Positions 3,001-53,200 of a stretch of 64,000 bases of DNA are shown piece by piece. Under the pieces are notes generated by a model. It was not told the origin of the DNA, did no database searches, and worked only from the letters and a program-made list of their open reading frames with translations. The position numbers and the translations under genes were made by a program. Numbering within the stretch: the first letter of the stretch is position 1; each line of letters starts with the position of its first letter. The DNA is from Limnomonas spitsbergensis (lineage: Eukaryota; Chlorophyta; Chlorophyceae; Chlamydomonadales): assembly GCA_037349105.1 (NCBI GenBank), contig JAYJMM010000037.1:620001-684000 (forward strand), given 5' to 3'.

Positions 3001-5605
3001 GCATAGTTGCGTGGCCACTGTGCCCAAACGTCCCCCCGCTGGCACTGCGCCCTACCCTCCTTCAGCTGACAAAATCATGGCCTTGCTCCATAGGTCTGCG
3101 TGGCCACTAGTGCAACACTCCCCCCCGCTGCACTGGAGCCCTAGCCCTCCTTCAGCTACAAATTCATGGCCTTGCTCCATAGTCTGCGGCGCGCCACTGT
3201 GCACACTCCCCCCGCTGCACTGCGCCCTACCCCTCCTTCAGCTACAAATCATGGCCTTGCTCCCATAGTCTGCGTGGCCACTGTGCCACACTCCCCCCGC
3301 TGCCACTGCGCCCTACCCTCCTTCAGCTACAAATCATGGCCTTGCTCCCATAGTCTGCGCGGCCACTGTGCCACACTCCCCCCGCTGCCACTGCGCCCTA
3401 CCCTCCTTCAGCTACAAATCATGGCCTTGCTCCCATAGTCTGCGCGGCCACTGTGCCACACTCCCCCCGCTGCCACTGCGCCCTACCCTCCTTCAGCTAC
3501 AAATCATGGCCTTGCTCCCATAGTCTGCGCGGCCACTGTGCCACACTCCCCCCGCTGCCACTGCGCCCTACCCTCCTTCAGCTACAAATCATGGCCTTGC
3601 TCCCATAGTCTGCGCTGCCACTGTGCCACACTCCCCCCGCTGCCACTGCGCCCTACCCTCCTTCAGCTACAAATCATGGCCTTGCTCCCATAGTCTGCGT
3701 GGCCACTGTGCCACACTCCCCCGCTGCCACTGCGCCCTACCCTCCTTCAGCTACAAATCATGGCCTTGCTCCCATAGTCTGCGTAGGCCACTGTGCCACA
3801 CTCCCCCCGCTGCCACTGCGCCCCTACCCTCCTTCAGCTACAAATCATGGCCTTGCTCCCATAGTCTGCGTGGCCACTGTGGCCACACTCCCCCCGCTGC
3901 CACTGCGCCCTACCCTCCTTCAGCTACAAATCATGGCCTTGCTCCCATAGTCTGCGTGCCACTGTGCCACACTCCCCCCGCTGCCACTGCGCCCTACCCT
4001 CCTTCAGCTACAAATCATGGCCTTTGCTCCCATAGTCTGCGTGGCCACTGTGCCACACTCCCCCCGCTGCCACTGCGCCCCTACCCTCCTTCAGCTACAA
4101 ATCATGGCCTTGCTCCCATAGTCTGCGTGGCCACTGTGCCCAACTCCCCCCGCTGCCACTGCGCCCTACCCTCCTTCAGCTACAAATCATGGCCTTGCTC
4201 CCATAGTCTGCGCTGGCACTGTGCCACACTCCCCCCCGCCTGCCACTGCGCCCTACCCTCCTTCAGCTACAAATCATGGCCTTGCTCCCATAGTCTGCGT
4301 GGCCACTGTGCCACACTCCCCCCGCTGCCACTGCGCCCTACCCTCCTTCAGCTACAAATCATGGCCTTGCTCCCATAGTCTGCGCGGCCACTGTGCCACA
4401 CTCCCCCCGCTGCCACTGCGCCCTACCCTCCTTCAGCTACAAATCATGGCCTTGCTCCCATAGTCTGCGTGGCCACTGTGCCACACTCCCCCCGCTGCCA
4501 CTGCGCCCTACCCTCCTTCAGCTACAAATCATGGCCTTGCTCCCATAGTCTGCGTGGCCACTGTGCCACACTCCCCCCGCTGCCACTGCGCCCTACCCTC
4601 CTTCAGCTACAAATCATGGCCTTGCACCCATGGTCTGCGTGGCCACTGTGCCACACTCCCCCCGCTGCCACTGCGCCCTACCCTCCTTCAGCTACAAATC
4701 ATGGCCTTGCTCCCATAGTCTGCGCAGCCACTGTGCCACACTCCCCCCGCTGCCACTGCGCCCTACCCTCCTTCAGCTACAAATCATGGCCTTGCTCCCA
4801 TAGTCTGCGTGGCCACTGTGCCACACTCCCCCCGCTGCTACTGCGCCCTACCCTCCTTCAGCTACAAATCATGGCCTTGCTCCCATAGTCTGCGCAGCCA
4901 CTGTGCCACACTCCCCCCGCTGCCACTGCGCCCTACCCTCCTTCAGCTACAAATCATGGCCTTGCTCCCATAGTCTGCGCAGCCACTGTGCCACACTCCC
5001 CCCGCTGCCACTGCGCCCTACCCTCCTTCAGCTACAAATCATGGCCTTGCTCCCATAGTCTGCGTGGCCACTGTGCCACACTCCCCCCGCTGCCACTGCG
5101 CCCTACCCTCCTTCAGCTACAAATCATGGCCTTGCTCCCATAGTCTGCGCAGCCACTGTGCCACACTCCCCCCGCTGCCACTGCGCCCTACCCTCCTTCA
5201 GCTACAAATCATGGCCTTGCTCCCATAGTCTGCGCAGCCACTGTGCCACACTCCCCCGCTGCCACTGCGCCCTACCCTCCTTCAGCTACAAATCATGGCC
5301 TTGCTCCCATAGTCTGCGCAGCCACTGTGCCACACTCCCCCCGCTGCCACTGCGCCCTACCCTCCTTCAGCTACAAATCATGGCCTTGCTCCCATAGTCT
5401 ACGCAGCCACTGTGCCACACTCCCCCCGCTGCCACTGCGCCCTACCCTGCTTCAGCTACAAATCATGGCCTTGCTCCCATAGTCTGCGCAGCCACTGTGC
5501 AACACTCCCCCCGCTGCTACTGCGCCCTACCCTCCTTCAGCTACAAATCATGGCCTTGCTCCCATAGTCTGCGTGGCCACTGTGCCACACTCCCCCCGCT
5601 GCCAC
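1..5605. repeat. 85-bp tandem satellite, about 65 copies
   Basis: The unit start agtctgcgca recurs at 81, 166, 251 and so on, a spacing of 85 bp, almost without interruption to about 5,600. Common variants are cgcagcc, cgtggcc and cgcggcc. Blocks of near-identical copies (81-660, 1600-2760, 3250-3780, 4270-5600) alternate with blocks full of one-base insertions and deletions (about 690-1560 and 2770-3240). Open frames in it have no stops only because the unit lacks them; they are not genes. The array stops a few bases from the splice donor of a minus-strand exon at 5611, so it probably lies in an intron. It runs off the left edge of the window. Confidence 0.97.
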
Positions 5606-5610
5606 TGCAC

Positions 5611-6974: not shown

Positions 6975-7649
6975 TTCGCGCTCGGGCAGATCCTCCTGAT
7001 GTAGCAGTACCGACAGCTAGAGTGAAAATGCCTCAGATCACGGTCCCAAGTAGTATTTGCACGCAAGTCGACAGCAACTACTGTTGCTGATGCTGAGTGT
7101 GACCCCGCTTGACCGGATGTCTAGCTGTTGGCCCTGCTGCTGCCCGGATTGCTGTTGCTGGATGGCGTGGAGCAGAGCAGTCACTTAATGTCGTGTGGTC
7201 AATGATTGAGTCGTCGAGGGATCAAATAATGGCGTATGGCAAATTGTTGATTTGCACAAGGAAGTGAAGCCGAGAAGCGGTCTACGGTACAGCTTGCTCC
7301 CAAGTGCCGAGTCAGTATGTGTCTCACACGAAATAAAAGCTACTAGCAGGTGCGTGACAAGCCCGACGATGTGGTGACCAGGCAGATAAGCACCAGGATG
7401 TGCTGATTGGGAAATCGTCTGTTCAGCAGTGCCAAACGAGCATGTCCACGGTTTTTATGTTCGACAGGCTTCCAGGCGCCAGCGTGGGTGATTATTATAA
7501 GTGCCTAAAAAGGAAAGGAAGGAACTCCGTTTTAAGGCGTGGATTTGAGGATGGCAAAGTGTGCTCACAGACTAAATAGTCAGTGGAATCCGTTTGGACG
7601 ATGCATCACCACGTGTAATGGTGGTTATAGGCCCCGGTTTTATTCACGA
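6975..7649. other. Unassigned stretch between the membrane-protein exon and the helicase relic
   Basis: No exon with good splice sites and coding character was recognised. The sequence next to 6974 could hold a 5' untranslated region or a further upstream exon of the minus-strand gene. Nothing else stands out. Confidence 0.4.
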
Positions 7650-10200: not shown

Positions 10201-10214
10201 TTACAGTCTGTCAA

Positions 10215-10600
10215 GCACTTCTGCTCTTGCGCTTACCCTTTGCGCTGCTCTATGCGCTGTTGTTTGCGCTGTTCTTTGCGCTGTTTGATCTGCTCGTTGC
10301 GCTGTTCTTTGCGCTGCTCTTTGTGCTACTCTTTGTCAGTGCTGTTCTTTGCTCTATGCGCTACTCCTTGCGCTGCTCTTTGCACTGCACTTGTCTTTGT
10401 GCAGTTTCTTTCTTCTTTGTGCTGCTCTTGTCTTTGCGCTGCTCTTTGCGCTGGTGTGCACTCTATCTGCTCTTTGCGCTGCTCTCTGCTCTGTGCGCTG
10501 CACTCTGCTCTTTCTTTGGCTCTTTGCACTGCACTCTGCTCTATGTATTGCTCTTTGTGTTGATCTTTGCTCTTTGCGCAGCTCTTTGCCATGCTCGTTG
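10215..10600. repeat. Degenerate (tttgcgctgctc)n repeat
   Basis: Words such as tttgcgctgctc, ctttgcgctg and ctctatgcgct recur at about 10-15 bp spacing throughout. The minus strand reads as a Lys-Glu-Gln-rich open frame, which follows from the repeat composition and is not evidence of a gene. Confidence 0.9.
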
Positions 10601-21732: not shown

Positions 21733-24700
21733 TCAGTGGTGCGACAGGGGCTCCATGGTGGATTTAAATACCAGCTGGTGGTCGATCGCCACGTTGTGCG
21801 CCTTGGCCACAGACTCTGGGCGACAGCACCATTTGACAGGCAGTTGAGAAATGACCTGCGAGCGCACGGCAAGTGGGAGTGGGAGAGTTAAGAGCTGAGG
21901 GTTCAGGGGGCGCTGCACAGTGAAGGTGTGGGGTAGGGATGGGGTCAATATCCAAAAGCTGAACACAAATAGCGCAAAAATACAGGTTTGGTATGAAGTC
22001 CAAGACGCACTACGTACTGCCGGGTTTCCCGCCCACCTCGTCAAAGTCTGCCTGCAGGCTTGGATCAGCAAACTTGCGGATGGCCTGCGAGGCAGGTGCC
22101 GCCACGTGCACGCGGGCAAAGGCTGTGCTGTGGGGCCTAACTGCAGCGGCGACTGCGACGTCGTCAGGTCCAGGGGGCAGGGTCAGGGTGCCTTCCTGAT
22201 ACAAATCAAAGAGAAGGAGGGGGGATGGGCAGGCAAAGAGGGATAAAGGGTCCGGTAAACCTTCCAGTGACCAGTTCAAGGGGGGATGGTAGGGGAGAAA
22301 GAGGGGTCTAGGGTCAGTATTCCTTCCAGTGACCAGTTTCACTGGGACACTGGGTGCATGGATCGTTTGCTTGCAGTTTTGCAGTGTGAGACTGGCCGCC
22401 AAACCCATAGAAAACATGAGGTACGCAAACACGAAAAAACAGCCCGGGTGCGCTTGTAGATCAAATCCCTTGTTTACTTGTCACTCAATTCTCTCACTGC
22501 CGTGCATTCCTCCCACCCTTGCTTGCTCCTTCAGTCCTCCCAGGAGGAGTCCAGCCGCCCGGCAAACACCCTCACTGGAAATCATTGGATCAAGGCCCTG
22601 CCGATGCTGCTACACAAGCATAAGTCTTCCAAGAAGGAGGCCAGCGGGCTGTTCCAACTGAACCTTTCCATCCATCCATTCCATCCAGGGGGGATGGTAG
22701 GGGAGAAAAGAGGGGTCTAGGGTCGGGGTTCCTCCCTATCACCAATCCAAGGGGGTGCGGGGTATGGGGGGCAAAGAGGGATGTAGGCCAGGCGGGGATG
22801 TAGGCCAGGCGTGGTATGGGGGGTAAAGAGGGATGTAGGCCAGGCGGGGATGTAGGCCAGGCGGGGTAAGGGGGGCAAAGAGGGATGTAAGCCAGGCGGG
22901 GATGTAGGCCAGGCGGGGTATGGGGGGCAAAGAGGGATGTAGGCCAGGCGGGGATGTAGGCCAGGCGGGGTAAGGGGGGCAAAGAGGGATGTAAGCCAGG
23001 CGGGATGTAGGCCAGGCGGGGTAAGGGGGGCAAAGAGGGATGTAGGCCAGGCGGGATGTAGGCCAGGCGGGGTAAGGGGGGCAAAGAGGGATGTAAGCCA
23101 GGCGGGATGTAGGCCAGGCGGGGTAAGGGGGGCAAAGAGGGATGTAAGACAGGCGGGATGTAGGCCAGGCGGGGTATGGGGGGCAAAGAGGGATGTAGGC
23201 CAGGGTGGGTGAATGATGACGAAGGGATCGGGGGTGCGAAAAGGAACACAGCGTGCATTACACACCGGCCAGGGTGGATGACATAAGTGAAATAAACAGA
23301 GGGACGACACAGGCTGTACAAAACAGTTACACGGAACATGAGTGAGCAGTACACAACCGAATTAAGGCAGTACCAAGGCAAGCGCGCGGCTTGACACTTG
23401 ACAGGGGTCACTTGCACACTCTGCAGAGGGGGAGCCATGAAGCCTCTGTTATGCGCATGTTGAAATCTGTAACCCTAAAACTCATACCTTGAAAACGGCC
23501 TGTTGCATGGGCTCTTTGGAGACTGTGAGAGTGAGCGTCTTGGTCTGTTGGAAAGAATAAACGAAGTACAGTAAGTATGCGCCGAAGCCGTGAGGTATGG
23601 GCTATATGTACCGTAACGTCCCGGTTACCATTGTAACTCCGTGACCATGGTAGCGGAAGTTTTTAACTGAAGTAAACACGGATACTACCGAGGTTTTCTT
23701 ACTGCAGATTTCCAGTAGTGCTACTGGTAGGTAAACCTCCTAGGGATTCGAAAGGGTTACCTCTTGAATTGGCAGTGAGATAAGAGCAATAATTTGGGGG
23801 CTTGAGAGGAAACTAGGAATGATGAAGGGGCATAGAGCGATGAAAGACAGCCTTACGAGTTGACTGAATGAAACAGTCACTGCGCATGGGCAAGCAGGGA
23901 GGGAGGGGAAGGGAGCATCTTGATCTACAGCATGTCGGCATCATATTATTGTCCCTCCGGCGTTACCTTGATCCGTCCTGGGGTCCTGGGGTTGTCTAGG
24001 AACGAGTACTCGCGGATCGGGATGCGTCGGCCTCGGACCTCCAGGCTGTACAGCTTGTTCATCTGCGGATTAGTTGCGGTACAAGTCGACATAGTTGACC
24101 GCGCCAGTGAGCCATGGGCAGCTATTGCCCGCGATCCTGATCCTTCAATGGTTTACGGAGGAGCAGGATGCCTGACTACCGGACAAACTAAGCAAGAAAC
24201 AAAACTACGCCCTATTAAGGTAAGGAAACAGTGCAGCTTGGGGCCGTAGCTGGGCAAACTAAACTCTTTGAACCTTCCATGCCTCCCCTCAACCCCCTGT
24301 ACCTGAAATATGTAGTCCGCGGGGCAGTTGAGCGGGAACTGCGTGAGCGTATCGCCCGGCAGCCGACAAAGAGGGTTCTCAAACCAGTTCTGGATACACC
24401 AACACTGGATCTGCAGTACAACATGGTGCGGTACAAAGTGAGCAGTACAACATGGAATTCACGCAATTGAGCAGTGTAGCATCACACAAGCCCTCTTTTC
24501 CGGGAGCGTCTCAATCGGTACGGAAGCCATCATTGCGGTACGGTCGTTGTTACAAAGTTGACGCAACCACCCACAGCCTTTGCGAAAGGGCCAGGCAGAG
24601 CGACCCGGGGAGAAACCAGAAAATGTGGAACGATACAGGCACCAGAGACCAAACCAAAACACCAGCCACGGACGCAACAGACGACACACAAACAACACAA

Positions 24701-30700: not shown

Positions 30701-33700
30701 TGAGGGGCAGTGGCTCAATGCCGTCACGATGGCTGAGGTGGCAGTCCTTCCTGTTCATATTGCTTTCTGGCCCTGTCATAAAAAGCTGCAGGGTGGGCTG
30801 GTTACGAACGTCGTCAGTAGCCCAAGTGGTCCAGAAATTGAAGAGGTTTTTCAGGTTTTGATGGGAGAGGTCATAGCGCTTTTAGGGTGGACTGCATCCC
30901 CGAGGCAGACGTCGCGTCAGGCCTGGCCCGTCTTGGAGAGAAAACTACTTCTTGATTATTAATTGTATACATAAAGCAGTTATAAATTTTATGATAAAGA
31001 CCAAAAAGTTAAATTAATTTTAGGGATACGTGGCATCACACATGTTGTACCAGCCGAACTGTCCATTCTTCTTGTCCGTTCCTTCTTTGTTTGTCTTGCC
31101 TCCGTCCGGTGACTAGTTGATGCTTACACAATTTAATTAACGACTGAGGGTTCCAACATCTCATGCCAGGGGCGATCATTCAAAGGGGCACACAGGTAAG
31201 GCGTGGGGCGGAGCCTCGAACAATTATGCACGATGGAGTAAAAGTGGTACACTGGCTGGGCTGCAGTGCACTCTGGCTAGGTACCATGTTAAGGGTGACA
31301 GGGTTTCAGGGTTTCAGGATTACAGGGTGTGGGGTGTGAAACTGTTCACCAGAGGCGCACCTGGTCGTGGAAGTTCTGTGCCTGCTTCTCTTTTCGAATT
31401 TCAAACCACTTGTCGATGAGGGCGCTGCCGCCCGAGGTGTTACGAAGGAAGTAAACGCCTGTGGGGTTATTTCAAATAAACAAGGTATTCTAAATTTAAT
31501 GGAATACCGGTACTTAAGAAACATACCATTCACAGTAATAAAAAATTACATTTCATCTTTTGCGCTTTGGGCGGGATCCCGTCCAAAGAAAGGGGCGTAG
31601 CAATCAGGGACATCCGGGTTCATTAAGGCGACAAACTGCAGTGTAACCCCCATTCAAAAGGTACTTGAAGGGTGCTCCAAGAGGCAGTTGGAAGGGTGCT
31701 TCAAGAGGCAGTTGCACCAACAGCAGTATTGTGGGCGGTTGTCAAAACGTCAAAACTCCTGTTTCATGTAACTCCATCATTTTCTCACCTGTGTTCATGT
31801 AGTGGCTGATTGTAACTCCCACTTCAGGCCCGTCGTCACCGATCGCGTTCCGCGTCAGAATCGGATCTAAAGAGACCATGTAGTCCGCGGCGACATGATA
31901 AACGGTGAAGTAAGGAAGGGGATCCCTGCGGTAAAGTGTGAAGCATTGTCAGCTCGTGAAGTACAGACGTGGGTGCATGCAGTACAAAGCCTCAACAACA
32001 ACAGGCGTCACTCACAGTGTATGGGTGCTTGCGCATTTTCAATGTTCACGCTTTTTCACACCAGTGCGGATTTTAATTAATTCCTGAATCTGAAAAGAAT
32101 ATCGCTGTGTACGTCCCGCCTACAGGTTTAATTGACAGTCATGAATGCTGTAGTTTCTGATGTACATAATCTAGACCTGTGGCGTTGAAACGGTTGTGGG
32201 GGGGAGGGAAGCAGCTGTGTGTTTGTGCTCGACTGTTAATGTGTGGGGAGGAGGTAGGGGGTCTGTCCTCAAGTGTCTGTGAAGGGGGACGGAGAGGGAG
32301 AATGTGTTTTCTCTACCCAACACATCCATTTCAGGCCACGCATCATAATGCCAACAAATTGGCCCACTCAAACGCCTTCTAGCCACTGAACAGCATAACA
32401 ATTCGTTGGTTGAAACGCATTTCAGTAGGTCAGATGGTTTTCTAACTCCCCGCCCTGAACCGCTGAAATCCCCAAACAGCCGCAACGGCAATCAATCACC
32501 GCCCATGAACCCGTCAGCTCCCACCATTGTTCCTTTTTGTGTGATTCAGCTACATGTCAGCTACATTCCGGCCGCTGGCCGGAGGCTTCATTTATGGCCA
32601 GCTTTGTTGCTTTGGCCACCAGTTATAAGTCGTTCCAGTTTTGGTCTCACTTGGGCCTTTGGCGGCCGCTGGGCGGCCTGCGGAGTTGGACTTGTGGCCT
32701 TTAAAAGAAACACTGGCTCTCACCTGAACCACACCACATCCATATCCGACTGCACCACATTGAACCCCAAGTGGTGGACATGGCGCACGTTCACCACCTT
32801 TTGCCAGGTGTGAAGCAACCACGTCTTGGAGCCCCACTTGAAATCTGTGGACCAGCAATTGCAAGGACATAATTGTTAATGTGTTTTAAGGGCCCTCAGA
32901 GGTCAGGGGAGATCTCGGGGCTTCCAGGGTGTCCAGAGTTTGAGGATTTTTGAAGTGTGTGTGGGGGGGGAAGGGGTGGTTGGCGTGGTGGGGGGGGGGG
33001 GCGGCAGATTTTGGATTTGGGCTTAGTGTTTATTAAAGACGGCTCTGGGTGCGAGCATTAACAGGGTCTGACCATTTGCTAGGGCTGCCATGCAAGAGGA
33101 TCCAAACAAACAAGAGAAATTGTGTTGGTTTTCTGTTGATTGTCCAGTGTCATATGTTTGAAGTTTCCACTTTAAATTGAAGGCAATGCAATGGTACTAA
33201 ATGGTGCAAAATCCATCACGACCAAACAGAGAGGCAGGCACATGTACGCTGAAGTATGTCCACCTGCCCCAGCCAATTGCAGGGGTTCGTCAGGAAAATA
33301 CCTGCCCTCCTATTCTAACCCTCGTACTGGTCCATGTACCCTCTACCTTCCCCCCATACCATCTGGATTCTCACCGGCACCCTCTCCCTTTGCCCCTCTG
33401 TCTAGATTCTCACCAATCACTATTACTCTATGTCTTCCCCCTCCTCATCTGGATCCTCACCTGCTTGCAGATCATCTACCTCGATATCTTCGGCCATGAA
33501 GCAGTGATCCACACCTCTAGATTGTACCTGGACAGTTCAGGATCCATCAATGAGGGTTCAGGATCCATCAATGAGGGTTCAGGATCCATCAATGAGGGTT
33601 CAGGATCCATCAATGAGGGTTCAGGATCCATCAATGAGGGTTCAGGATCCATCAATGAGGGTTCAGGATCCATCAATGAGGGTTCAGGATCCATCAATGA

Positions 33701-36700
33701 GGGTTCAGGATCCATCAATGAGGGTTCAGGATCCATCAATGAGGGTTCAGGATCCATCAATGAGGGTTCAGGATCCATCAATGAGGGTTCAGGATCCATC
33801 AATGAGGGTTCAGGATCCATCAATGAGGGTTCAGGATCCATCAATGAGGGTTCAGGATCCATCAATGAGGGTTCAGGAATCATCAATGCGGATTCAGGGT
33901 CCATCAATGAGGGTTCAGGATCCAAAAAATAGATTCATAGAGGGTTCAGGATCCATCAATGAGGGTTTAGGATCCATCAATGAGGGTTCAGGATCTATCA
34001 ATGAGGGTTCACGATCCATCAATGAGGGTTCAGGATCCATCAATGAGGGTTCAGGATCCATCAATGAGGGTTCAGGATCCATCAATGAGGGTTCAGGATC
34101 CAACAATGAGGGTTCAGGATCCATGAATGAGGGGTCGGGATCTAAACACATATATTCATAGAGGGTCCAGGATCCGTAAAGTAGGGTTCATGCATTGTTC
34201 CAGCTCCATGTGGCATTTCCTCCACTTTCTCTTCCTACCTATCATCGCCCTTTCCCCTCCTCTGCTCTTCCTCCTCCTCCCTCCCCTCCTCCCCTTCCTG
34301 CCCCCCCTCCACTCCTCCCCCTCCTTCCCCACCCCGCCGTCGCCGCTCCTCCTCATCTCACCCACTCTTCCTCCTCCTCCTCCTCTTCCTACTCTTACCC
34401 AGCTCCCCTTACCCCGCTCCTCCTCTTCCTCTCTTTCTCCTCCTACCCTTCCCACGACACCGACGCACCAGCTCAGCCATATATTTGTGTCTGACACGGT
34501 CAAGAAATAAATCGTGTACCCCCCCCCCTCCCTCCGCCCCCCGTCCCCCCCCCCCTCCCTCCGCCCCCCGTCCCCCCCCCCCTCCCTCCGCCCCCCGTCC
34601 CCCCCCCCCTCCCTCCGCCCCCCGTCCCCCCCCCCCTCCCTCCGCCCCCCGCCCCCCCCCCCTCTTCCTTCCCCCTCCCTCCGCCCCCCGCCCCCCCCCC
34701 CTCCCTCCGCCCCCCGCCCCCCCCCCTCTTCCTTCCCCCTCCCTGCTCCTTCTCCTTCTCCCCAAAGATACACCAGCTCAGCTGTCACTGCCAGCAAAGC
34801 AGGACATGATACCCCTTTCCCCCCCCGGTCACCACCTTGCTCCCCCTCCCCTTCTCGCACCACAGACGCACCCGGTCCTTCCACACTCCACCTCCCTTCC
34901 CCCCGCACAGACGCACCAGCTCAGCCGTCTTGTTGTCTGGCACTGCCAGAACCCAGTACGTGATACCGGCCGCCTGGACGTTGCTCAACCAGGTCGCCCC
35001 AAACAGGCTGAACATCAAGTGGTCAGTGAACACAATCATGACCTGGGGGGAGGGGAGCGAGGTTAAAAACGTCGTCAGTAAAGCTTTTGCACCACCGTAC
35101 AAAGGGGGTTTTCGGGGTTTGGTTGTAGGGGGTTTTCGGGGTCTGGCGCAGGGGGTTTGGCAAAAACAGAGTCTGACTAAATGAAAATCGCTGGTAACCA
35201 ATTCGCTCGTTGATTGACAGCCGTTATCTGAAAGGGTGCGAGCGTTAGCCATCAGCCACATACACCGCAACTACAGGGTCATGAACAAAAAAAGCGGACG
35301 TAGCCTACGTTCGCCGGCTAGTTTGCAATTCGGGGTGTGGAACAGGTGCAGGGCCTAGGGTTTAGGGCGGGGGACAGGTGCAGAATTTGGGGTTCAGGGC
35401 GGGGGCAGGTGCAGGGCCCAGAGTTCAGGGCATGGGACAGGTGCAGGGCCTAGGGTCAGGGTGTGGGACAGGTGCATGGCCTAGGGTTTAGGGCGGGGAT
35501 CCGGGGCTCAAGTAAGCAAGTACTGGCTCAATCCTTGCATCTGCAATCGCAGGAACAATCAGGGAGAAGGCATGGGAAGGGCAACATATTTCAATGTGGC
35601 GACTTCATCATGGCCTCCCTCACCCGGCCCCCTACCCCAACCTCCCCCCCAGCACGGGAAGGGCAACATATTTCAATGTAGCGACTTCATCATGGCCTCC
35701 CTCACCCGGCCCCCAACCCCCCCCCCCCCCATCTGCCCACCGTTCCGTTTTTTGCCCATTTGTTGAGCAGGTCGACGCTGAGCTTTCCGCATGTCCCAGG
35801 GGTCGGTGGCATCGGGGACAGGGGCGCCATCGGGCTGGGTGGCCGCTGGGTTGATAAGATGACCTGCAGGGACAGAGGACACGCAGTCGCTGGTGCGTCC
35901 AGATGCAAGGGAGCCTCAAATCATTCAGAGGAGGAGGACAGAAAAATCCTGATGCCCAGAGCAAGGGAAACGATGGGATTTGGCAGTTTTTTCACGTCTG
36001 CACGGCGGGCCTTGCTGGCAGGCCTATGATTTTGTGACCCAGGTGTGAACCAGGGGTGAATCAGGTGTGAAAGCCTGGAAAGAATAGACCCTTTGATCAG
36101 AATCAAGCCTAAGTGCTGACAGATCCTCTGATCTAAGAGGGATCTGATCTGATCTGATCTGGACCAAGCACAGAGGGACGATGCACATGCACATCCGCGT
36201 CCACTTATTTGAACTGATGTGAACGTCCCCACCAATATGCATGAGCTGCTGTGCTACACATCACCCAGATGCATGAGCTGATGTGTGCTACCCAACCCAG
36301 GCACGTCAGCTGAAGTGTCATACATCACCCATGAGCTTGAGCTGTTGTATACTACCTAACCCATGCCTATGAGCTGCTGTGTACATCCTCACCCTTGCAC
36401 ATGAGCTGGCGGGCATGTCCCCACCAACATGCATGCACTCATGTGTATTTTTTCACACATGTGCATGAGCTGATGTGTACTACCCCACCCATGCGCATGA
36501 GCCAACGTTTGCTACCCCCACACATGCGCATCAGCAATTAAGCATGTGTGAACTGCCCCACCCATGTGCATGTGCATGGGGCTGATGTTTACTTCTCCAC
36601 CCATGCCCATGAGCTGTTGTGCACTTCCCCATCCATGCATATGAGCTGACTGGCATGTCCCCACCCATATGCATGAACTGATGTTAACTACCCCATCCAT

Positions 36701-37592
36701 GCCCATGGACTGATGGGAACATGTAACCTCCCATCCATATGCATAAGACAATGGGCACGTCTCTACACAGGCACATGAGAATTCTCTACCCATGTGCATG
36801 ACATGAAAACAAGATGGGCACGTACCAGCCCATGTGTATGGGTTGATGCATACTTCCCCACCCATGACCATGAGCTGATGGGCACACGTCACCTCCCAAG
36901 AACATAAGCCGATGCGTGTGTCCCCACCCATGCGCATGAGTCTATATGAACTTCCCTACCCATGTGCTTAGGATAATGGGCACGTCCCCACAGCAGCACA
37001 TGAGCTGATGCTTACTGCTCCACCTATGTGCATGACTGCATGGGCGCATCCCTGCCCATATGTATGGGCTGATGCATACTTCCCCACTCATTTGCATGCG
37101 CTCATGGGCAAGTCCCCACCCATGTGGCAATGTCCATGTGCTGATGTTGACTCCTCCACCCTTGTGCATGAGCTAATGTGCACTTCCCCACTTATGTGCC
37201 TGAGCTGATGTACACTTCCCCACCTATGCGCATGAGCAAATGTGTTTCTTTTCACCCTTCCGCATGAGCAGATATGTGCTTCCCCAACCATGTGCATGAG
37301 CTGATAAGCAAGCCCCGACATATGCGCATGAGATACCAGTTATGCTGCTGCTGCTTACGTTTTGGTCCCATTGTATCTGCGTGAGGCTGGTGTGGTAGAT
37401 CTTGGGCAGGGTTAGGACGAGGACCACTACTACGATGGCCAGCAACACCGCTATGGCGCCTCCTTTGAAGGGGCGTCTCGCAGGAGCAACAGTTCGAGAA
37501 CCCTCCGCGTCCGTGACACTGGCTTCTGCATCCCCTCTGCTTTGGAAGATGGAGTAGCGCGCCTTGCGCTTGACGCCAGCGCGATCCATCAT
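21733..37592 (-). CDS. XEG113: GT77 arabinosyltransferase, XEG113/RRA-like (20 exons, 720 aa)
   Basis: Predicted Golgi type II enzyme adding arabinose to hydroxyproline-rich glycoproteins, as XEG113/RRA do in plants (family knowledge). Exons (high to low): 37592-37359, 35863-35741, 35042-34917, 33527-33461, 32844-32724, 31925-31789, 31458-31361, 30560-30502, 28921-28825, 27426-27369, 27047-26970, 26550-26397, 26057-25991, 25505-25445, 24915-24776, 24410-24303, 24062-23967, 23544-23488, 22195-22037, 21855-21733. All introns are GT-AG and all phases agree. Residues 44-62 form one transmembrane anchor. The nucleotide-diphospho-sugar transferase domain follows: MIVFTDHLMFSLFGATW (about 163-179), a DxD motif in QSDMDVVWF (D217, D219), NTGVYFLRNTSGG, and FHDQDGLYKYL (about 299-309). 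The C-terminal half (LNRTLILPK, then four cysteines at 543-569) matches the longer XEG113 type. XEG113 versus another GT77 clade was not tested. Confidence 0.93.
22745..23205. repeat. Minisatellite (gatgtaggccaggcgggg) in GT77 intron 18
   Basis: gtaggccaggcggggtaagg and gcaaagagggatgta alternate over about ten units in the intron 22196-23487. Open minus-strand frames rich in Pro, Leu and His are by-products. Confidence 0.95.
24183..24260 (+). repeat. Dispersed repeat family A (SINE-like), copy
   Basis: Reads aactacgccctattaagg and then aaggaaacagtgcagcttgg, in the intron between GT77 exons at 24303 and 24062. The same parts occur at about 21585, 25551, 25645, 27232 (opposite strand), 60080, 61557 (opposite) and 62655 (opposite). 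It ends before the conserved gcgccgttacc box seen in full copies. Confidence 0.6.
24916..25085. repeat. 28-bp repeat carrying copies of the exon 15 acceptor
   Basis: The unit contains gcaacaggatggtgcaacaa at 28-bp spacing, about six copies. On the gene strand each copy reads ttag|gtgttgttgca, the same as the acceptor and first bases of GT77 exon 15 (starting at 24915). Choosing the copy at 24915 gives a phase match with exon 14. Confidence 0.9.
25540..25730 (+). repeat. Two tandem family A copies in GT77 intron 13
   Basis: Copy one starts after a gaaagaaagaaa run: aactacgccctactggagcc, then gaacagcacagcttgggccc. Copy two starts at about 25645 and runs to cacatccgcgccgttacc near 25722. They lie in the intron between GT77 exons 13 and 14 (25506-25990). 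Confidence 0.7.
27230..27325 (-). repeat. Dispersed repeat family A copy, opposite orientation
   Basis: Reads ggtaacggcgcggatgtggc, a gctgcgctgttttcttaact box, then an acgccccccacggggc hairpin and a ctttttt/ccttcc tail. Near-identical to the copy at 61557-61650. It lies in GT77 intron 10 (27048-27368). Confidence 0.75.
27530..27860. repeat. 56-bp tandem repeat in GT77 intron 9, about six copies
   Basis: ggagttacac recurs at 27592, 27648 and 27704, a 56-bp spacing, with cagtgatgagggggttacat and gaacgcaaggtcaa between. It lies just beyond a truncated copy of exon 10 (27477-27519). Confidence 0.95.
28230..28720. repeat. About 49-bp tandem repeat in GT77 intron 9, nine copies
   Basis: Units of gaccctcaaccagggaaagg, then a G-rich run and ccctttcccagccctg. 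The complementary blocks ccctggac...ccaggg and cccttt...aaaggg could fold into hairpins. The open plus-strand frame is not a gene. Confidence 0.95.
28922..29950 (-). repeat. 100-bp repeat containing the acceptor and first part of GT77 exon 9, ten extra copies
   Basis: The block ggccggcatctgggccagct to atcttggtgta recurs every 100 bp (junction positions 29021, 29121 and so on to 29921). On the gene strand each copy holds an acceptor-like cacacag or cacacaag, then TACACCAAGATCATAGGYG and the codons for KTKLAQMPATQF, as in exon 9. The true exon (28825-28921) is the last copy in transcript order and alone continues to QNGYSHCINQIHK and a donor. 100 is not divisible by three, so including a copy would shift the frame. 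Confidence 0.97.
30590..30715. repeat. Short repeat gcggtacaatggtgaggtac in GT77 intron 7
   Basis: gcggtacaatggtgaggtac and close variants recur about six times just upstream, in transcript sense, of exon 8 (starts at 30560), beginning roughly 30 bp from the acceptor. Confidence 0.85.
32546..32700. repeat. Dispersed repeat family B, copy 2
   Basis: cagctacatgtcagctacat, then ccgctggccggaggct, tatggccagctttgttgctt, and a gggcggcc tail. It aligns by eye with 47630-47780 at most positions. It lies in GT77 intron 5 (31926-32723), next to the exon 5 donor. Confidence 0.75.
33533..34140. repeat. 21-bp tandem repeat in GT77 intron 3, about 28 copies
   Basis: Units of ggttcaggatccatcaatga plus one base. 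The array starts 6 bp from the acceptor of exon 4 (33527). The unit is a multiple of three without stops, so both strands show long false proteins (SGSINEG or MDPEPSL repeats). A short degenerate break lies near 33880-33950. Confidence 0.98.
34450..34830. repeat. C-rich 31-bp repeat flanked by copies of the GT77 exon 3 end
   Basis: ccccccctccctccgccccc recurs at roughly 31 bp from 34515 to 34740. It is G-rich on the transcribed RNA. On the gene strand, ctgagctg|gtgtatc (near 34775) and ggctgagctg|gtgcgtc (near 34472) repeat the end of exon 3 and its donor. The first copy extends back over GGTATCA, TGGCAGTG and CAG of the exon. Confidence 0.9.
35330..35505. repeat. About 32-bp repeat (gacaggtgcagggcctaggg) in GT77 intron 2
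   Basis: gacaggtgcagggcctaggg with gtttagggcggggg recurs five times between exons 2 and 3 (35043-35740). Confidence 0.85.
36195..37345. repeat. Degenerate about 30-bp repeat filling GT77 intron 1
   Basis: Words like catgagctgatgtgtac, cttccccacccatg and gtgcatgagctgatg recur some 35 times across most of the intron 35864-37358, ending about 15 bp from the exon 1 donor. Copies are far more diverged than in the other arrays, which suggests an old expansion. Confidence 0.9.
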
Positions 37593-44267: not shown

Positions 44268-47200
44268 ATGGCGATGAGCGTAAGTAATGACGATGCTATA
44301 TTGTGTACTTGGATCTTCGAATTTCATCGTTGGGTCCTTCCACGATCTACGTTTTGCATCATCTTACAGGCTCTCACTTTCACCCTCGCCCCCTATAGAT
44401 GAGCCAGCAGTCGGGCATCTTGCAACAAGGTGCCAGCGAGGAGCGCGGTGAAAATGCCCGCCTGGTGAGGAGAGCTCCGTGCCAAAATGGAGGCAACATC
44501 TGCATGCTCCCTCGCGCTGCTTTGTAGATTGTATCTGCTCTCTGAATTTATTCGTCGTCCGCCGCAGGCTTCTTTTGTGGGTGCGGTCGCGATCGCTGAC
44601 TTGGTGAAGTCGACACTGGGCCCCAAAGGCATGGTAAGCGCGCCGCAAGGAAATCGGACTCGCAAGAATGCACGCCTCACTATCCATCAGAAGATTGAGC
44701 TCAAAAGTAAAGAAATTATAATGGGGGGCTTTAAACCTGCATCTGATGAACAGCCCATGCACACAACGAAGTGCATGGGATATTCTTGCTTCCTCCTCGG
44801 TATTGAAGGCTGTGACGAGCTCCAGATCATCAGGTGCCCACCACTATAATGATCCTGATCACCAGGCAATCTAATGTTGTCTTGATCCGGACCACAGGAC
44901 AAAATCTTGCAGAGCATGGGCCGTGGCCAGGCCATCACAGTCACAAACGACGGTGCCACAATCCTCAAGTCCATCTATATTGACAACCCAGCTGCCAAGG
45001 TGCTAGTTGGTAAGTTAAGGGTCACATATCCATGTGCATGCTCTGGAACCAGATGCATGTGGGTGCATCCGCTTCTGGTGCATGATGTCACACCTGGACA
45101 CCATGGTGTGAGGCTGATACACATGCTGCTTATTGTTTATAAGAGAATCTGTAACTAATCCTCCACTCACTTTCCTCTTGCTCTCTCAGACATCTCCAAG
45201 GTCCAGGATGACGAGGTCGGCGATGGCACCACGTCGGTGGTGGTGCTGGCCGGCGAGCTGCTACGTGAGGCGGAGCAGTTGGTGAACCAGAAGATCCACC
45301 CTATGACCATCATCGCAGGTGCGGGGGAAATGTTATTTACTTCAACAGGCTCCCTCCCAGGCCCTCCTAGTTGGATCAGCCTGCTGCAGCCTCTTTTGCC
45401 AAGGGATCTGGTTGGGAAACAGTGAGCCGGCCATGCTGGTTTTTGATTATTTGCTGCTTGGCCCATAGCTTTGTGCATGACGTGATTGTGTGTGTTTGGG
45501 AATGCATGCCGGTTTCAAGTGTGGTAGAAACAGATCATAGGCCGGATCCCTACCATTCATGTGTTGGAATGGGGATCAGCCGGTGGTTGATGTGGCAAAG
45601 CCCAGGGTGATTATTTGCCTGTGCCTGAACTGGAGGTAATTCAGATCCGAACTCAGAGGAGGGGGAACCAGCATGGCCTCGCTACAGTGGACAACAATGA
45701 GTATGGAATTTTGAATCAGTTCAAAAAGCGGATGTTGCGATACAATAATTGTATGGTACTAGTAGTTCAGATTTAAGTGTTTAGAGGGAGGAAATGAAAG
45801 GAACTTGCTAGCCCAATGTGCTGTGGCAGACAATATTTGATTGCCGCTGAGCGTGTGATAGGTGGTAGCTGGGCGAGGGTCGGGCCAGAGATATGGCTAT
45901 GTGAGGTCCAATGGGCCGGGTCAATGGTATATTCGATGTCCTAGTCAGACGGTTTCGCATGGAAGCAAGCTGTGGAATAGAAATTTGAAGTTGTGCATCA
46001 TCAGCTCGTAAGGCCGAGAGCCCTGGCTATGTTTAAGGCCATTGCCAAGCCTTTTGAGCCCATTGCCAAGCCTTTTGAGCCCAGGCCTAGGAGGAAGCTA
46101 TCGCTCAACCTTGAGAGCTCCTGTCTCAGAGAGTGAACCCTTCCTACCTGCACTGGGCCGTTGTTCTTTCCTTCTACCTCCTTGCCCACCAAAATTTGAG
46201 GAGGTTGCGCCTTCAGGGCCCCAACCCAGTCGCGCATGCATGCAGAAAACCAATATATGAATCCAGCCTAAATTCTCCACCCTAAATCTTGAACCTTGAC
46301 CCTGAACCAGTAATGAATCCACCCCAAATCCTGAACCCTGAACCTTGACCCTGAACCAATATACGCAGTCCTCCGCCCTAACTTCTGAACCCTGAACCTC
46401 TGCCCTAAATCCTGAACCCTGAACCTCGACCCCGCTTTTAAACAGGCTTCCGTGAGGCGTGTGAGTGCGCGCGCAAAGTGCTTGAAGACGCCGCCTTCAG
46501 CAACAGCGGCAACCCCGAGCTCTTCCGCTCCGACCTCATGAACATCGCCAAGACCACGCTTTCCAGCAAGATCCTTACGGGCGACAAGGAGCACTTTGCC
46601 AAGCTGGCCGTGGACGCGATCATGCGGCTCAAGGGCAGCGGCAACCTGGAGGCCATCCACATCATCAAGAAGCCGGGCGGGGCGCTCCGGGAATCATACC
46701 TGGACGAAGGGTACATTCTGGACAAGAAGATCGGAGTGGGCCAGGTGGGACAGATGGGGAGGCGGGGTAGCTGGGCTACTGGGGAGTGGGCCAGGGGGGG
46801 ACCAAATGGGAGTGTTTAGGGTGGCCGAATGGGCGGCAGGTTCGACGAGCTAGGGGGTTAAGGGAAGGTTGCAGCAGCTGCAGTAGGAGCTGGTAGGACA
46901 GGGCATTGCAAATGAAAGAGGGGCATGCCTGGATGGCTAAATCAGGAGGAGGGGTGGCGGACCTAGGGTGGAGCCAGGGAGAGAAAATATTTGAAAAAGG
47001 AGTAACCTGAAACCAAAATAGGTCATCGAAGATGGTGTGGGCCAGCACAGGGAGGAGCCCCACCTGTGTTTTTACAAGTCAGTGGCCCTGACCTGCGCCC
47101 CTTGACGCTGTTTTACCGAGCACCGTCCTCAACACTTGCAGCCTAAGCGCATCGAGAATGCACGCATCCTGGTGGCTAACACGGCCATGGACACGGACAA

Positions 47201-50200
47201 GATCAAGATCTACGGGGCGCGTGTGCGTGTGGACAGCATGGCCAAGGTGGGGATGAGGAGGGGGGGGGGGAAGGGGTCACATGGGAGAGGTGGAGGGGCT
47301 CTATGAGAAGCACTTGCCATTGAAGCTTCCGCCATTCAATGTGATCGTGTGTATGGATTGGCGGGAAGTTTTGTATTGGATGTTGAGAAGTAGCCTGGGC
47401 AAGGGGTGGACCAACTATATGTCTTCCCAAACCAGGTGCTTCAGGGGGGTGTGGGGGTTGAGGTGCCAAGCTGTTTGCATTTAAGAGGGCAAAATGCATG
47501 CAGCATGGAACGCATCATGTCAACACTTTGCTGCTCTCTTTTGTGTCCTAAGAACTGCACCCTGCTGCTGCTGTGAACTCATTTTCGAAACGGTCCCGTC
47601 TTGTGACGTCCAGCGTTTCTTTTTTCTTGACTCAGCTACATGTCAGCTACACACCGGCTGCTGGCCGGAGACCCCATTTGTGGCCAGCCTTGTTGCTTTG
47701 GTCACCAATTGCAGGCCGGTCCAGGTTTGGTTCCAATTGGGCCGCTGGGCGGCCTGGCGAAGTTTAAGTTGTAGCCGGGGGGGAAATCACTGGTGACGTC
47801 CCTTCCCTACACCCCCAGGTTGCAGATATTGAGGCGGCTGAGAAGGACAAGATGCGCGAGAAGTGCACCAAGATCCTGTCCCACAACATCAGCTGCTTCA
47901 TCAACAGGCAGCTCATTTACAACTTCCCCGAGGAGATCTTTGCTGACGCAGGGGTCATGGCCATTGGTGAGGCAGTGGGGTGTGTGGGGGAGGCAAGGTT
48001 GTGGCCGAGAGCTTGCCTCAATCCCTGTGTTAGCCATTGGTGGGGCAGAGGGGGGTGTGTGTGGGGAGGGTGGGGGCAAGGTTGTGGCCTGAGAGTTTGC
48101 TTCAATTTCTGTTGTAGCCATGAGCTTGAAGGATTCAAATCTGTTTTGAAATGGATTTTGCCCGTGTCAGATCCAGTGCTCCTCTGTTTGCCCGATGGCC
48201 TGATGGAGCTCTCAGAAACCAGCGCAGTGCATAGGCTCCTCCGTCTCATGTTTTCCAGCACCACGGATTTCCCACAGACATCATATCTGATCAAGACGCG
48301 CTCCTTGTCCTTTTCCACATGTCGCCCTTCCTCTCCCTGACCCTGACCCCGAACCCCAGTCTTAAGCCCTTTATCGGAATACGGAACCCTGAACCCTCGT
48401 AACCCTGAACGCTTTCATCAGCGCCCCTGCTCCTCCTCCTAGTAGTACCAGTGTAGCTGAATCATAAGAAGCGAACTATACATCTCCTCCCCTTACTCTT
48501 CCTGACAGGACAACAGTGTAGGGTGACCTAAAGCATGTCATCCAGCCTCCTCCTGCTATTACCCCTAGTCTTATAAGTTGCATGGCAGAATCCAAATGTG
48601 GTGTAACCAACTAACCATGCCTTCACACTATCTGCAGAGCATGCTGACTTCGACGGCATTGAGAACCTTGCCCTGGTTCTGGGTGGTGAGATTGTGTCGA
48701 CATTTGACGACCCGACCGGCGTCAGGCTGGGTAGCTGCAAGCTGATCGAGGAGATAATGATTGGAGAGGACAGGCTCATTCACTTCTCAGGTGTGGATCT
48801 GGGGGAGGGGGTGCAGGATTATTCCCGTGTTGGGTGTGGATCTGGGGGGGGTGCAGGATTATTCCCGTGTTGGGTGTGGATCTGGGGGGGGGTGCAGGAT
48901 TATTCCCGTGTTGGGTGTGGATCTGGGGGGGGGTGCAGGATTATTCCCGTGTTGGGTGTGGATCTGGGGGGGGGTGCAGGATTATTCCCGTGTTGGGTGT
49001 GGATCTGGGGGGGGGTGCAGGATTATTCCCGTGTTGGGTGTGGATCTGGGGGGGGGTGCAGGATTATTCCCGTGTTGGGTGTGGATATGGGGGGGGGTGC
49101 AGGATTATTCCCGTGTTGGGTGTGGATCTGGGGGGGGGGTGCAGGATTACTCCCGTGTTGGGTGTGGATCTGGGGGGGGGTGCAGGATTATTCCCGTGTT
49201 GGGTGTGGATCTGGGGGGGGGTGCAGGATTATTCCCGTGTTGGGTGTGGATCTGGGGAGGGGGTGCAGGATTATTCCCGTGTTGGGTGTGGATCTGGGGG
49301 GGGGGGGGTGCAGGATTATTCCCGTGTTGGGTGTGGATATGGGGGGGGGTGCAGGATTATTCCCGTGTTGGGTGTGGATCTGGGGGGGGGTGCAGGATTA
49401 TTCCCGTGTTGGGTGTGGATCTGGGGGGGGGTGCAGGATTATTCCCGTGTTGGGTGTGGATCTGGGGGGGGGTGCAGGATTATTCCCGTGTTGGGTGTGG
49501 ATCTGGGGGGGGGGTGCAGGATTATTCCCGTGTTGGGTGTGGATCTGGGGGGGGTGCAGGATTATTCCCGTGTTGGGTGTGGATCTGGGGGGGGGGTGCA
49601 GGATTATTCCCGTGTTGGGTGTGGATCTGGGGAGGGGGTGCAGGATTATTCCCGTGTTGGGTGTGGATCTGGGGGGGGGGTGCAGGATTATTCCCGTGTT
49701 GGGTGTGGATCTGGGGAGGGGGTGCAGGATTATTCCCGTGTTGGGTGTGGATCTGGGGGGGGGTGCAGGATTATTCCCGTGTTGGGTGTGGATCTGGGGG
49801 GGGGTGCAGGATTATTCCCGTGTTGGGTGTGGATCTGGGGGGGGGGTGCAGGATTATTCCCGTGTTGGGTGTGGATCTGGGGGGGGGTGCAGGATTATTC
49901 CCGTGTTGGGTGTGGATCTGGGGGGGGGGGTGCAGGATTATTCCCGTGTTGGGTGTGGATATGGGGGGGGGTGCAGGATTATTCCCGTGTTGGGTGTGGA
50001 TCTGGGGGGGGGTGCAGGATTATTCCCGTGTTGGGTGTGGATCTGGGGGGGGGTGCAGGATTATTCCCGTGTTGGGTGTGGATCTGGGGGGGGGGTACAG
50101 GATTATTCCCGTGTTGGGTGTGGATATGGGGGGGGGTGCAGGATTATTCCCGTGTTGGGTGTGGATCTGGGGGGGGGGTGCAGGATTATTCCCGTGTTGG

Positions 50201-53200
50201 GTGTGGATATGGGGGGGGGTGCAGGATTATTCCCGTGTTGGGTGTGGATCTGGGGGGGGGGTGCAGGATTATTCCCGTGTTGGGTGTGGATATGGGGGGG
50301 GGTGCAGGATTATTCCCGTGTTGGGTGTGGATCTGGGGGGGGGTGCAGGATTATTCCCGTGTTGGGTGTGGATCTGGGGGGGGGTGCAGGATTATTCCCG
50401 TGTTGGGTGTGGATCTGGGGGGGGGGTACAGGATTATTCCCGTGTTGGGTGTGGATCTGGGGGGGGGTGCAGGATTATTCCCGTGTTGGGTGTGGATCTG
50501 GGGGGGGGTGCAGGATTATTCCCGTGTTGGGTGTGGATCTGGGGGGGGGGGCAGGATTATTTCCGTGTTGGGTGTGGATCTGGGGGGTGGTGCAGGATTA
50601 TTCCCGTGTTGGGTGTGGATCTGGGGGGGGGGATGCAGGATTATTCCCGTGTTGGGTGTGGATCTGGGGGGGGGGTACAGGATTATTCCCGTGTTGGGTT
50701 TGGATCTGGGGGGGGGGTACAGGATTATTCCCGTGTTGGGTTTGGATCTGGGGGGGGGGTACAGGATTATTCCCGTGATGGGTGTGGATCTGGGGGGGGG
50801 GGTGCAGGATTATTCCCGTGTTGGGTGTGGATCTGGGGGGGGGTGCAGGATTATTCCCGTGTTGGGTGTGGATCTGGGGGGGGGTGCAGGATTATTCCCG
50901 TGTTGGGTGTGGATCTGGGGGGGGGGTACAAGATTATTCCCGTGTTGGGTGTGGATCTGGGGGGGGGGTACAGGATTATTCCCGTGTTGGGTGTGGATCT
51001 GGGGGGGGGGGGTGCAGGATTATTCCCGTGTTGGGTGTGGATCTGGGGGTGGGAGGAGGAAAGGCTCATTCCCGTGTTGCGAGTGGATCTGGGGGAGGGA
51101 GGAGGACAGGCTCTGGTACTTCTCATGTATGGACCTTGGGGGTGGAGCAGCACCTGCATAAGGTGAAAATCAAGAGATTCTGACAGGAGGAGGGGCAGGG
51201 GGGCTCCCTTCCTGCTTTCCCAGCATTGGCTCAATATTTCTTGCCCTGATCAGTTCCGTCCCCCGTCTTCACCCGTCTAAATCGTTCCCGGTTCCCCGTC
51301 TTCACCGCAGGTGTCGCCCTGGGTGAGGCCTGCACCATTGTGTTGCGAGGTGCCAGCACACACATCCTGGATGAGGCAGACCGCTCGCTGCACGACGCGC
51401 TGTGCGTGCTGCAGGCCACTGTCAAGGACTCGCGTGTCGTGTATGGAGGTGGCTACCCAGAGATGAAGATGGCCAAGGGCGTGGAGGAGCTGGCGGGGAA
51501 GACGCCAGGTGGGTGGGGGGCGAGAGACTGAGGGTTTGGTTGGGATGTGTGTGGGGGGGGAGATGTGATGGGCAGGGATTTGTAAGTGGTTACTGGTTAC
51601 GAGTCGGAACCAAACAATTAATTCGGCGAAGCCGAGGTTCAATTGCGCGGGACAAAAACGACAAAATCAATTAGGATTGGAAAATTTCGGCGGCGCGCTC
51701 TTCACCCAGAACTTCATCAGAACTCGCTGCTTCTGGTAACAAAAATCAATCCCGGGTGACATAAAAAGAAATCCCTGGTGATGGGGTCTGGATGAGGCGC
51801 AGAGGGTGGGTGCTGTGAGAGCGCTGAGCTGGGGTTGGGCTTTACTCATGGATTGTATTAGAAAGGACGCAGTTTTATGAATCTTTCCTTTGCCCACTTT
51901 CACGAATTTACTATATCGACGAGGGTGTTGCAGTACTTTCTCAACCTTGACCTTCAAAACTGATCGGGGCTCTTAGTATAATGTGCAAAGAACTGGTGAA
52001 GGCCCCTCCTAAAAGGCAGGCGAAGCGAAGGTGACCCCTCGACTAGGAAACAGCAGGCTGCAGGGATCGTCCTCGATGGGCGTCACCCTCCTTGATTGAT
52101 GCCCAACACTTGTCACCATGCCCTCTTACCCCGCCATCCCTTCAGGCCCTCTTACCCCGCCCTCCCCTCTTACCCGGCCTTCCCCTCTTACCCCGCCCTC
52201 CCCTCTTACCCGGCCCTCCCCTCTTACCGGCCCTCCCCTCAGGCCCTCTTACCCGGCCCTCCCCTCTTACCCGACCCTCCCCTCTTTTACCCCGCCCTCC
52301 CCTCTTACCCCGCCCTCCCCTCTTACCCGGCCCTCCCCTCTTACCCGGCCCTCCCCTCTTACCCGACCCTCCCCTCTTACCCCGCCCTCCCCTCTTACCC
52401 CGCCCTCCCCTCTTACCCCGCCCTCCCCTCTTACCCGGCCGTCCCCTCTTACCGGGCCCTCCCCTCTTACCCCGCCCTCCCCTCTTACCCCGCCCTCCCC
52501 TCTTACCCGGCCGTCCCCTCTTACCCTGCCCTCCCCTCTTACCCCGCCCTCCCCTCTTACCCCGCCCTCCCCTCTTACCCCGCCCTCCCCTCTTACCCCG
52601 CCCTCCCCTCTTACCCGGCCGTCCCCTCTTACCCGGCCCTCCCCTCAGGCCCTCTTACCCGGCCCTCCCCTCTTACTTGGCCCTCCCCTCTTAACCCGCC
52701 CTCCCCTCTTACCCGGCCGTCCCCTCTTAACCCGCCCTCCCCTCAGGCAAGAAGTCGCTCGCCATGGAGGCCTTTGCCCGCGCGCTGCGATCGCTGCCCA
52801 TGACTATCTGCGACAACGCCGGCCTTGACAGCTCGGAAATCGTGGCCAACCTGCGTGCGGCGCACGGTGCAGACCCCAACTCGCGCATGGGCGTGGATGT
52901 GGTGCTCGGCGAGGCCGCTGACGTGGCTGTGCTGGGGATCTACGAGGCGTTCCGGGTCAAACATCAGGTGCGTGGAAATGGCTGGTACTGCTGCAGCTGC
53001 GTGTACAGAGCAAGTGCTGTTGTTGCAGCAGCGCGTCTGGGTGCACCCTCGGGCCTCTTGGTCAGGTGGTGACAAACTTCTTACTTATTGATTGGTTTGT
53101 TTAGCTTTTTCAGATGTATGAAGGGGTAGGGGTAGATGGATAGGCCTGAAGCCCGAGTTTGATCCTTTCCGGCCCTTCGGGTTCACCAGAATTGCATGCC

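Follow-up and report, generated by a model that had tools for sequence, protein, structure and literature searches.

Minisatellite-like repeats that cross exon-intron boundaries are known from amphioxus, where the "mirages" of Adh3 and of the globin genes BflGb6 and BflGb9 occupy both 5' and 3' boundaries, have units of variable length and, in many of those units, keep the AG or GT of the splice site, as described in the part of that study on which we draw (PMC3087553). In the green algae Chlamydomonas reinhardtii and Volvox carteri, tandem repeats (TRs) are enriched toward the ends of introns (PMC3887541, in the passages cited here), and tandem duplication of sequence carrying splice signals is recorded for ATP2A1 and for the potato RNA-dependent RNA polymerase (RdRp) gene, in the latter as a duplication of the 3' side of an intron together with the 5' side of the next exon (PMC4974935, likewise in part); a further paper, in the portion available, takes up repeat content and isoforms (PMC12633428). 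Here we describe a comparable case in the green alga Limnomonas spitsbergensis, centred on a stretch of 64,000 nucleotides (positions 620,001 to 684,000 of contig JAYJMM010000037.1, C37 below; hereafter the window) that carries CCT2, the gene for T-complex protein 1 subunit beta, and a nucleotide-diphospho-sugar transferase gene of family PF03407, for which we keep the label GT77 given in an earlier note on this DNA. In the stretches examined, about one splice junction in eight has a visible copy of its exon edge in the adjacent intron, and these copies are probably the product of tandem duplication that is blind to position and is tolerated at junctions since the exon-proximal site is kept.

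The sequence analysed, about 334 kb and mostly from one contig of a 260-Mb, 124-contig assembly, comprises the window, C37:610001-620000, C37:684001-894000 and two stretches of a second contig, C41. Homology models were built with a custom spliced aligner (donors GT or GC only, acceptors AG only) from Chlamydomonas eustigma proteins, and have GT-AG boundaries at 28/28 introns of CCT2 and GT77; LEC14B/DCAF11 is the third homology gene. Among the matches listed, the closest named relative of the CCT2 protein is that of C. eustigma (91% identity), as is the best match of GT77 (g9259), and the C. eustigma genes g9249 and g9259, each listed with a contig of 324,570 bases, probably lie together in that alga too. 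All other exons come from an ab initio exon-chaining model trained on CCT2 and GT77 and then on its own strong predictions; seven of eight predicted proteins carry a Pfam family (WD40, EF-hand in two of them, protein kinase, calpain, AAA, lysine decarboxylase) and one carries none. Exons of at least 45 bp were kept for the copy, profile and decoy analyses, with flanks of at least 60 bp for the exon-edge count and the 288-junction profile and at least 250 bp for the 246-junction profile; exons were removed below a score of 22 in the 320-junction analysis of array edges, 20 in the placement test that allows straddling and 25 in the copy, profile and decoy analyses, and ab initio exons with over 60% of their length in repeats were left out too (18 in the array-edge analysis, and others in the remaining ab initio analyses).

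Counting as an exon-edge copy any 40-mer with a same-strand match score of at least 12.5 in the adjacent intron, we found copies at 10/80 junctions of the three homology genes, five of them among the 24 of DCAF11, against 0/29 exon middles (exons of at least 120 bp only), 7/3120 comparisons with other introns and 1/80 in reverse complement. The earlier note had proposed a check of exon-edge identity; in this comparison the copies are more frequent than chance would give. Ab initio exons outside these genes, on C37 and C41, gave copies at 24/190 junctions, as against 1/141 exon middles, 10/2823 other flanks and 0/190 in reverse complement, although a duplicated gene contributes one junction twice to the 24 (C37:807916 and 816434) and a coiled-coil gene accounts for a few others; in 20 of these 24 hits at most 5 bp separated the copy from the junction, and in 15 the two touched. 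CCT2 and GT77 were picks of the earlier note and DCAF11 was chosen partly for arrays near its exons, a selection that can be checked against the ab initio set, which gives the same rate. With CCT2 and GT77 alone and a score of at least 13, the counts were 4/56 junctions, 0/56 in reverse complement, 3/1512 cross pairs and 1/40 exon middles. Copies aligned across the junction itself were present at 42/288 junctions, 24 of them donors and 18 acceptors.

In CCT2 and GT77, 14 of the 28 introns contain arrays according to Tandem Repeats Finder (TRF), 28 arrays in all, which together occupy 37% of the 21,607 bp of intron, and in the 40 introns of the three homology genes the 10-90% range of TRF periods is 14-90 (Table 1). 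The clearest case is the acceptor of GT77 exon 9, where 40/40 exon bases recur in the adjacent intron together with ten decoy acceptors, six with AG intact and four with AA. The earlier note had claimed arrays near the junctions of these two genes, several with the exon edge inside the unit, and for much of this we found the same: both ends of GT77 exon 9, the exon 10 acceptor, the exon 3 donor and the donor of CCT2 exon 8, where the decoys inspected keep GT and have TGG instead of CAG before it. Its CCT2 exon 11 seems to be exon 10 of the present model, in which some array units hold the acceptor and only 2 exon bases. At three places the description went too far: GT77 exon 15 has its array and no exon copy, CCT2 exon 9 has copies of the intron side only, 22 bp long for its acceptor and 17 bp for its donor, and CCT2 exon 6 has nothing at either junction (best scores 7 and 9). 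Unit lengths differ between loci (41, 85, 90, 100 and 126 bp, and others), and units have no match in other introns beyond chance (18/1599 unit-intron pairs at a score of 16, 16/1599 with shuffled units), so that the claim of unrelated units in different introns holds, as does the broader picture of recurring tandem duplication, growth of existing introns and decoy splice sites.

Table 1. Genes, arrays and exon-edge copies; positions are those of the window unless marked C37
Feature	Position	Strand	Basis
CCT2 (T-complex protein 1 subunit beta) gene, 11 exons, 10 introns	44399..53742	+	spliced alignment to P0003 (C. eustigma, 91%)
Nucleotide-diphospho-sugar transferase gene (PF03407, GT77), 19 exons, 18 introns	21751..37589	-	spliced alignment to P0121 (C. 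eustigma g9259)
LEC14B/DCAF11 gene, 13 exons, 24 junctions, ~143 kb beyond the window end	C37:836059-826726		homology model
GT77 exon 9	28825-28921	-	
100-bp x 10.9 array in which the GT77 exon 9 acceptor and the 58 exon bases after it recur upstream, in intron 8	28864..29949	-	TRF
Copy of GT77 exon 9 donor, 19/20 bases, 3 exonic	28772..28791	-	
Copy of first 33 bases of GT77 exon 10 (30/33) in intron 9, acceptor AG not intact	27486..27518	-	
Junction-spanning copy of GT77 exon 3 donor in intron 3, GAGCTG/gtgcgt intact, score 25.5	34438..34497	-	
21/42-bp array without exon copy, its end 7 bp upstream of GT77 exon 4 acceptor	33535..34142	-	
15-bp x 3 array without exon copy, 1 bp upstream of GT77 exon 15 acceptor	24412..24455	-	
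41-bp x 55.7 array from CCT2 exon 8 donor, 2,317/2,520 bp of intron 8	48790..51106	+	
Diverged copy of CCT2 exon 8 end (20/24 bases), far end of 41-bp array	51102..51125	+	
18-bp x 32 array, rich in pyrimidines, its end 2 bp upstream of CCT2 exon 10 acceptor; CCCTCAGG in some units	52147..52744	+	
Borderline copy (score 12.5), in intron 5, of the end of CCT2 exon 5	47028..47045	+	

The first alternative to blind placement is that junctions themselves seed tandem duplication and that introns grow from them, as the earlier note had proposed; splicing-linked breaks, R-loops, G-rich donors or C-rich acceptor tracts could be the cause. When arrays are shuffled within introns, this looks attractive: 12 of 28 arrays in the window lie within 30 bp of a junction where 2.6 are expected, and 19 of 86 outside it where 10.2 are expected. 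Such a null is unfair, however, because a blind duplication can also straddle the junction. Under a null in which the first duplicated unit may do so (gaps of up to 2,500 bp), 18 arrays fall within 30 bp of a junction in the ab initio introns beyond the window, where 19.0 are expected (P=0.66), so that the excess over shuffled positions which the earlier note had anticipated exists against the stricter placement and is gone from the ab initio set once straddling is allowed. TR coverage near junctions is also below that deeper in introns.

Because array edges as called by TRF may mislead, a profile that sidesteps them was also made, in which 40-bp windows were scored for a copy elsewhere in the adjacent intron. 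Over 288 junctions (not all represented at every offset), the rate is 0.36 at 100-300 bp into the intron, 0.28 at 10-60 bp, 0.22 at -30 to 0, 0.12 in the last 40 exon bases and at most 0.02 from 90 bp into the exon, a smooth fall from intron across junction to exon with no peak of local copies at the junction. The 246 junctions measured at every offset give 0.134 at -40, 0.244 at -20, 0.272 at -10 and 0.264 at 0, then 0.30-0.33 at +20 to +100; the ratio of window starts at -20, -10 and 0 to those at +20 to +100 is 0.81 (confidence interval 0.70-0.94). A window starting at 0 is intronic, so this ratio describes the junction region, and the exon side is better judged by the exon-edge rates, which were 10/77, 6/69, 2/51 and 0/42 at depths of 0, 20, 40 and 60 bp, with 0.20, 0.12, 0.07 and 0.04 forecast under full tolerance. 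Seeding at junctions is, on these grounds, an improbable account, and that part of the earlier note is not supported, even if an excess of edges remains in the homology genes.

Several observations nevertheless weigh against a purely blind process. With straddling allowed, the window genes still have 12 arrays near junctions against 6.0 (P=0.006, in a window chosen on account of this very feature), and 17 edges lie within 30 bp of a junction in the three homology genes against 8.6 (P=0.0013). TRF edges, counted over 320 junctions, concentrate between -10 and +50 bp, with 0.022-0.031 of them for every 10 bp and junction compared with 0.008-0.016 farther than 50 bp away. This excess may consist of diverged exonic copies cut off by TRF; at the donor of DCAF11 exon 9 the TRF edge lies at +34, yet three copies of the junction are present. 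A modest extra effect near junctions is conceivable. The deep offsets of the profile come from longer introns only, and 208 of the 288 junctions are ab initio, some of them in a coiled-coil gene with repetitive coding sequence. Finally, exon-edge rates are 55-72% of forecast at 0-40 bp (the intervals include the forecast), and since they lie under it and fall to zero at 60 bp, some mild purging of exon-edge copies is likely.

Position-blind duplication with tolerance at junctions thus remains the reading that we hold to be probable. Short tandem duplications, with units mostly of 14-90 bp, would arise anywhere in a repeat-rich genome, presumably by repair or replication slippage, and would then expand to arrays. 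Where a duplicated segment happens to straddle a junction, the intron would acquire a copy of the exon edge along with its donor or acceptor; the gene would survive because the copy adjoining the intact exon remains, and this copy would have to be the one used. The remaining copies would stay in the intron as decoys and drift, and introns would lengthen without any attraction of duplication to their junctions.

The decoys themselves are well preserved. GT is kept in 91/96 donor decoys (the CCT2 array supplies 53 of the 96 and 52 of the 91) and AG in 33/45 acceptor decoys; per junction, retention of GT is 0.86 against 0.67 expected from flank identity, and that of AG 0.76 against 0.76, and since the dinucleotides are kept at least as often as their flanks forecast, there is no sign of purging of the sites. 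Selection against decoys had been considered on account of the AG lost in 4/10 copies at GT77 exon 9 and in 2/6 at DCAF11 exon 3, but retention over the 42 junctions is at or above the flank forecast. A constraint on reading frame was likewise set aside: 20 of 59 decoy distances are multiples of 3, the chance share. The best decoy scores no more than 1 bit below the real site, or exceeds it, at 20/42 junctions; in DCAF11 intron 9 three decoy donors are identical to the real TTACAG/gtgggc, and an EF-hand gene acceptor at C37:869654 has six intact decoys. The homology models take the exon-proximal copy, as the reading frame requires, and we infer from frame and homology that this is the site used, that is, the first of near-identical donors and the last of near-identical acceptors. 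For Volvox and Chlamydomonas the passage cited favours intron definition as the main mode of splicing (PMC4378016); an exon-proximal choice would fit exon definition. One could go further and propose that straddling minisatellites are so common, and their decoys so intact, that splice choice must obey this exon-proximal rule through exon definition, that the arrays form a genome-wide natural test of it and a store of spare junctions for intron gain, and that CCT2 intron 8 is a candidate for an origin in duplicated coding sequence followed by amplification of about 56-fold; we offer this tentatively, with the balance tilted against it.

That last possibility also exists as a general account, in which the arrays would mark introns born by duplication of AGGT-containing coding sequence (the intron gain of Rogers type) and amplified later. 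CCT2 intron 8 speaks for it: its start (48791-48810) resembles the start of exon 9 (51311-51330) at 14/20 positions, a level that 0/756 cross pairs reach, the CCT2 protein alignment continues into the intron, and the 41-bp unit resembles, as judged by eye, the end of exon 8 plus the start of exon 9. With 28 introns tried, this single case is only suggestive of a possible trace of such a birth, seen in sequence comparison. Across the set, the signature of an intron start copying the next exon start is found in 1/28 introns (the only one to reach 12/20), mean similarity is 6.07 to the intron's own next exon against 5.51 across introns, and intron ends resemble their own previous exon ends less (5.64) than those of others (6.18), which makes intron birth a very improbable explanation of the arrays as a whole. 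Still less credible is that the repeats are functional, retained near junctions as regulators of constitutive or alternative splicing, as has been suggested for Chlamydomonas and Volvox from the enrichment of TRs toward intron ends (PMC3887541, in the passages cited), given that local copies show no excess at junctions, that decoy distances show the frame proportions above and that units lack a match in other introns. An artefact of assembly or gene models can be dismissed almost entirely: such arrays are difficult to assemble and ab initio exons in repeats may be false, but the copies and the real junction differ in sequence (per junction, flank identity averages 0.71-0.97), so that the copies are not simply duplicated reads, and rates in the homology and ab initio sets are equal, with exons rich in repeats removed. 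A mobile element, with one family in many introns, was rejected as well, as unit matches in the 40 introns tested equal those of shuffled units.

Several further features were seen. An 85-bp satellite of 65 copies (5.6 kb) at 1-5608 of the window starts 2 bp inside the donor-like end of a possible exon, at about 5611-5718 on the minus strand, which encodes a hydrophobic segment and is unproven; no exon copy was found in this satellite (score 9). In a gene with a lysine-decarboxylase domain (PF03641; window 39252-40431, plus strand), an 18-bp x 22 array follows a predicted exon end at a distance of about 19 bp. The unit of a 21-bp minisatellite at 16318-16579, outside the tested introns, has six further occurrences, on six other contigs, with 75-97% identity, so that some units are dispersed in the genome. 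Tracts of CCCTAAA/CCCTGAA in introns (46370-46427 and 35342-35498 of the window, and C37:781139), some of which adjoin junctions, are what we take to be telomere-like sequence. Farther along the contig, a segment with a gene that we presume to be DnaJ-like and an AAA-type ATPase gene occurs twice (C37:800915-810429 and 806723-817473, about 8.3-8.5 kb apart; loci L021-L023) and carries its copied splice-junction decoys in both copies, and an 18-bp array of 113 copies at C37:792689-794578 (L020-L021) is open as a VDRGSR repeat, possibly coding and possibly a false exon.

Taken together, exon-intron boundaries hardly bar tandem duplication in an alga far from amphioxus: the boundary is barely a barrier because edges are copied at the fractions of forecast given above (0-40 bp) and junction windows at 0.81 of the intron rate. 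This offers a simple mutational explanation of how introns become longer and accumulate decoy splice sites, and it supplies natural experiments on how the spliceosome chooses among near-identical sites. Enrichment of repeats near intron ends need not imply a splicing function or a hotspot at the junction, because a fair null must allow straddling duplications, and the present analysis corrects what is likely a misreading of that pattern.

Introners and other transposon-born introns resemble the present case as recurrent intron change across genes; here, no common element was found among the 40 introns tested, in which respect the two differ. The earlier note knew of no description of such a structure; that it is undescribed is not supported, both the amphioxus mirages (PMC3087553) and the TR enrichment in C. 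reinhardtii and V. carteri (PMC3887541) having been published. ATP2A1 and potato RdRp differ, as far as the cited portion goes (PMC4974935), in that existing introns grow here and only CCT2 intron 8 hints at gain. With C. reinhardtii and V. carteri our alga shares TR-rich introns and more TRs near junctions, as one green alga with others; the cited passages of PMC3887541 deal with units of 1-50 bp, leave exon-edge copies aside and read the pattern as regulatory, whereas in this alga blind placement with straddling accounts for most of the TR enrichment near junctions. All four mirage features that were tried are found here: repeats that span boundaries (the 10/80 and 24/190 junctions with copies and the 42/288 with copies across the junction), both boundary types, unit length that varies between loci, and splice signals kept in many units, not all. 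Judged on sequence features and on the cited part of PMC3087553, the structure is the same as that of the amphioxus mirages. We found no report of boundary-spanning repeats in green algae in open-licence PubMed Central. The differences lie in the organism, a green alga rather than a cephalochordate, and in extent, with roughly one junction in eight as opposed to the few loci reported in the amphioxus passages. What is new here, relative to the cited passages of PMC3087553 and PMC3887541, is thus the frequency of such repeats in an alga and a measured profile of them across junctions.

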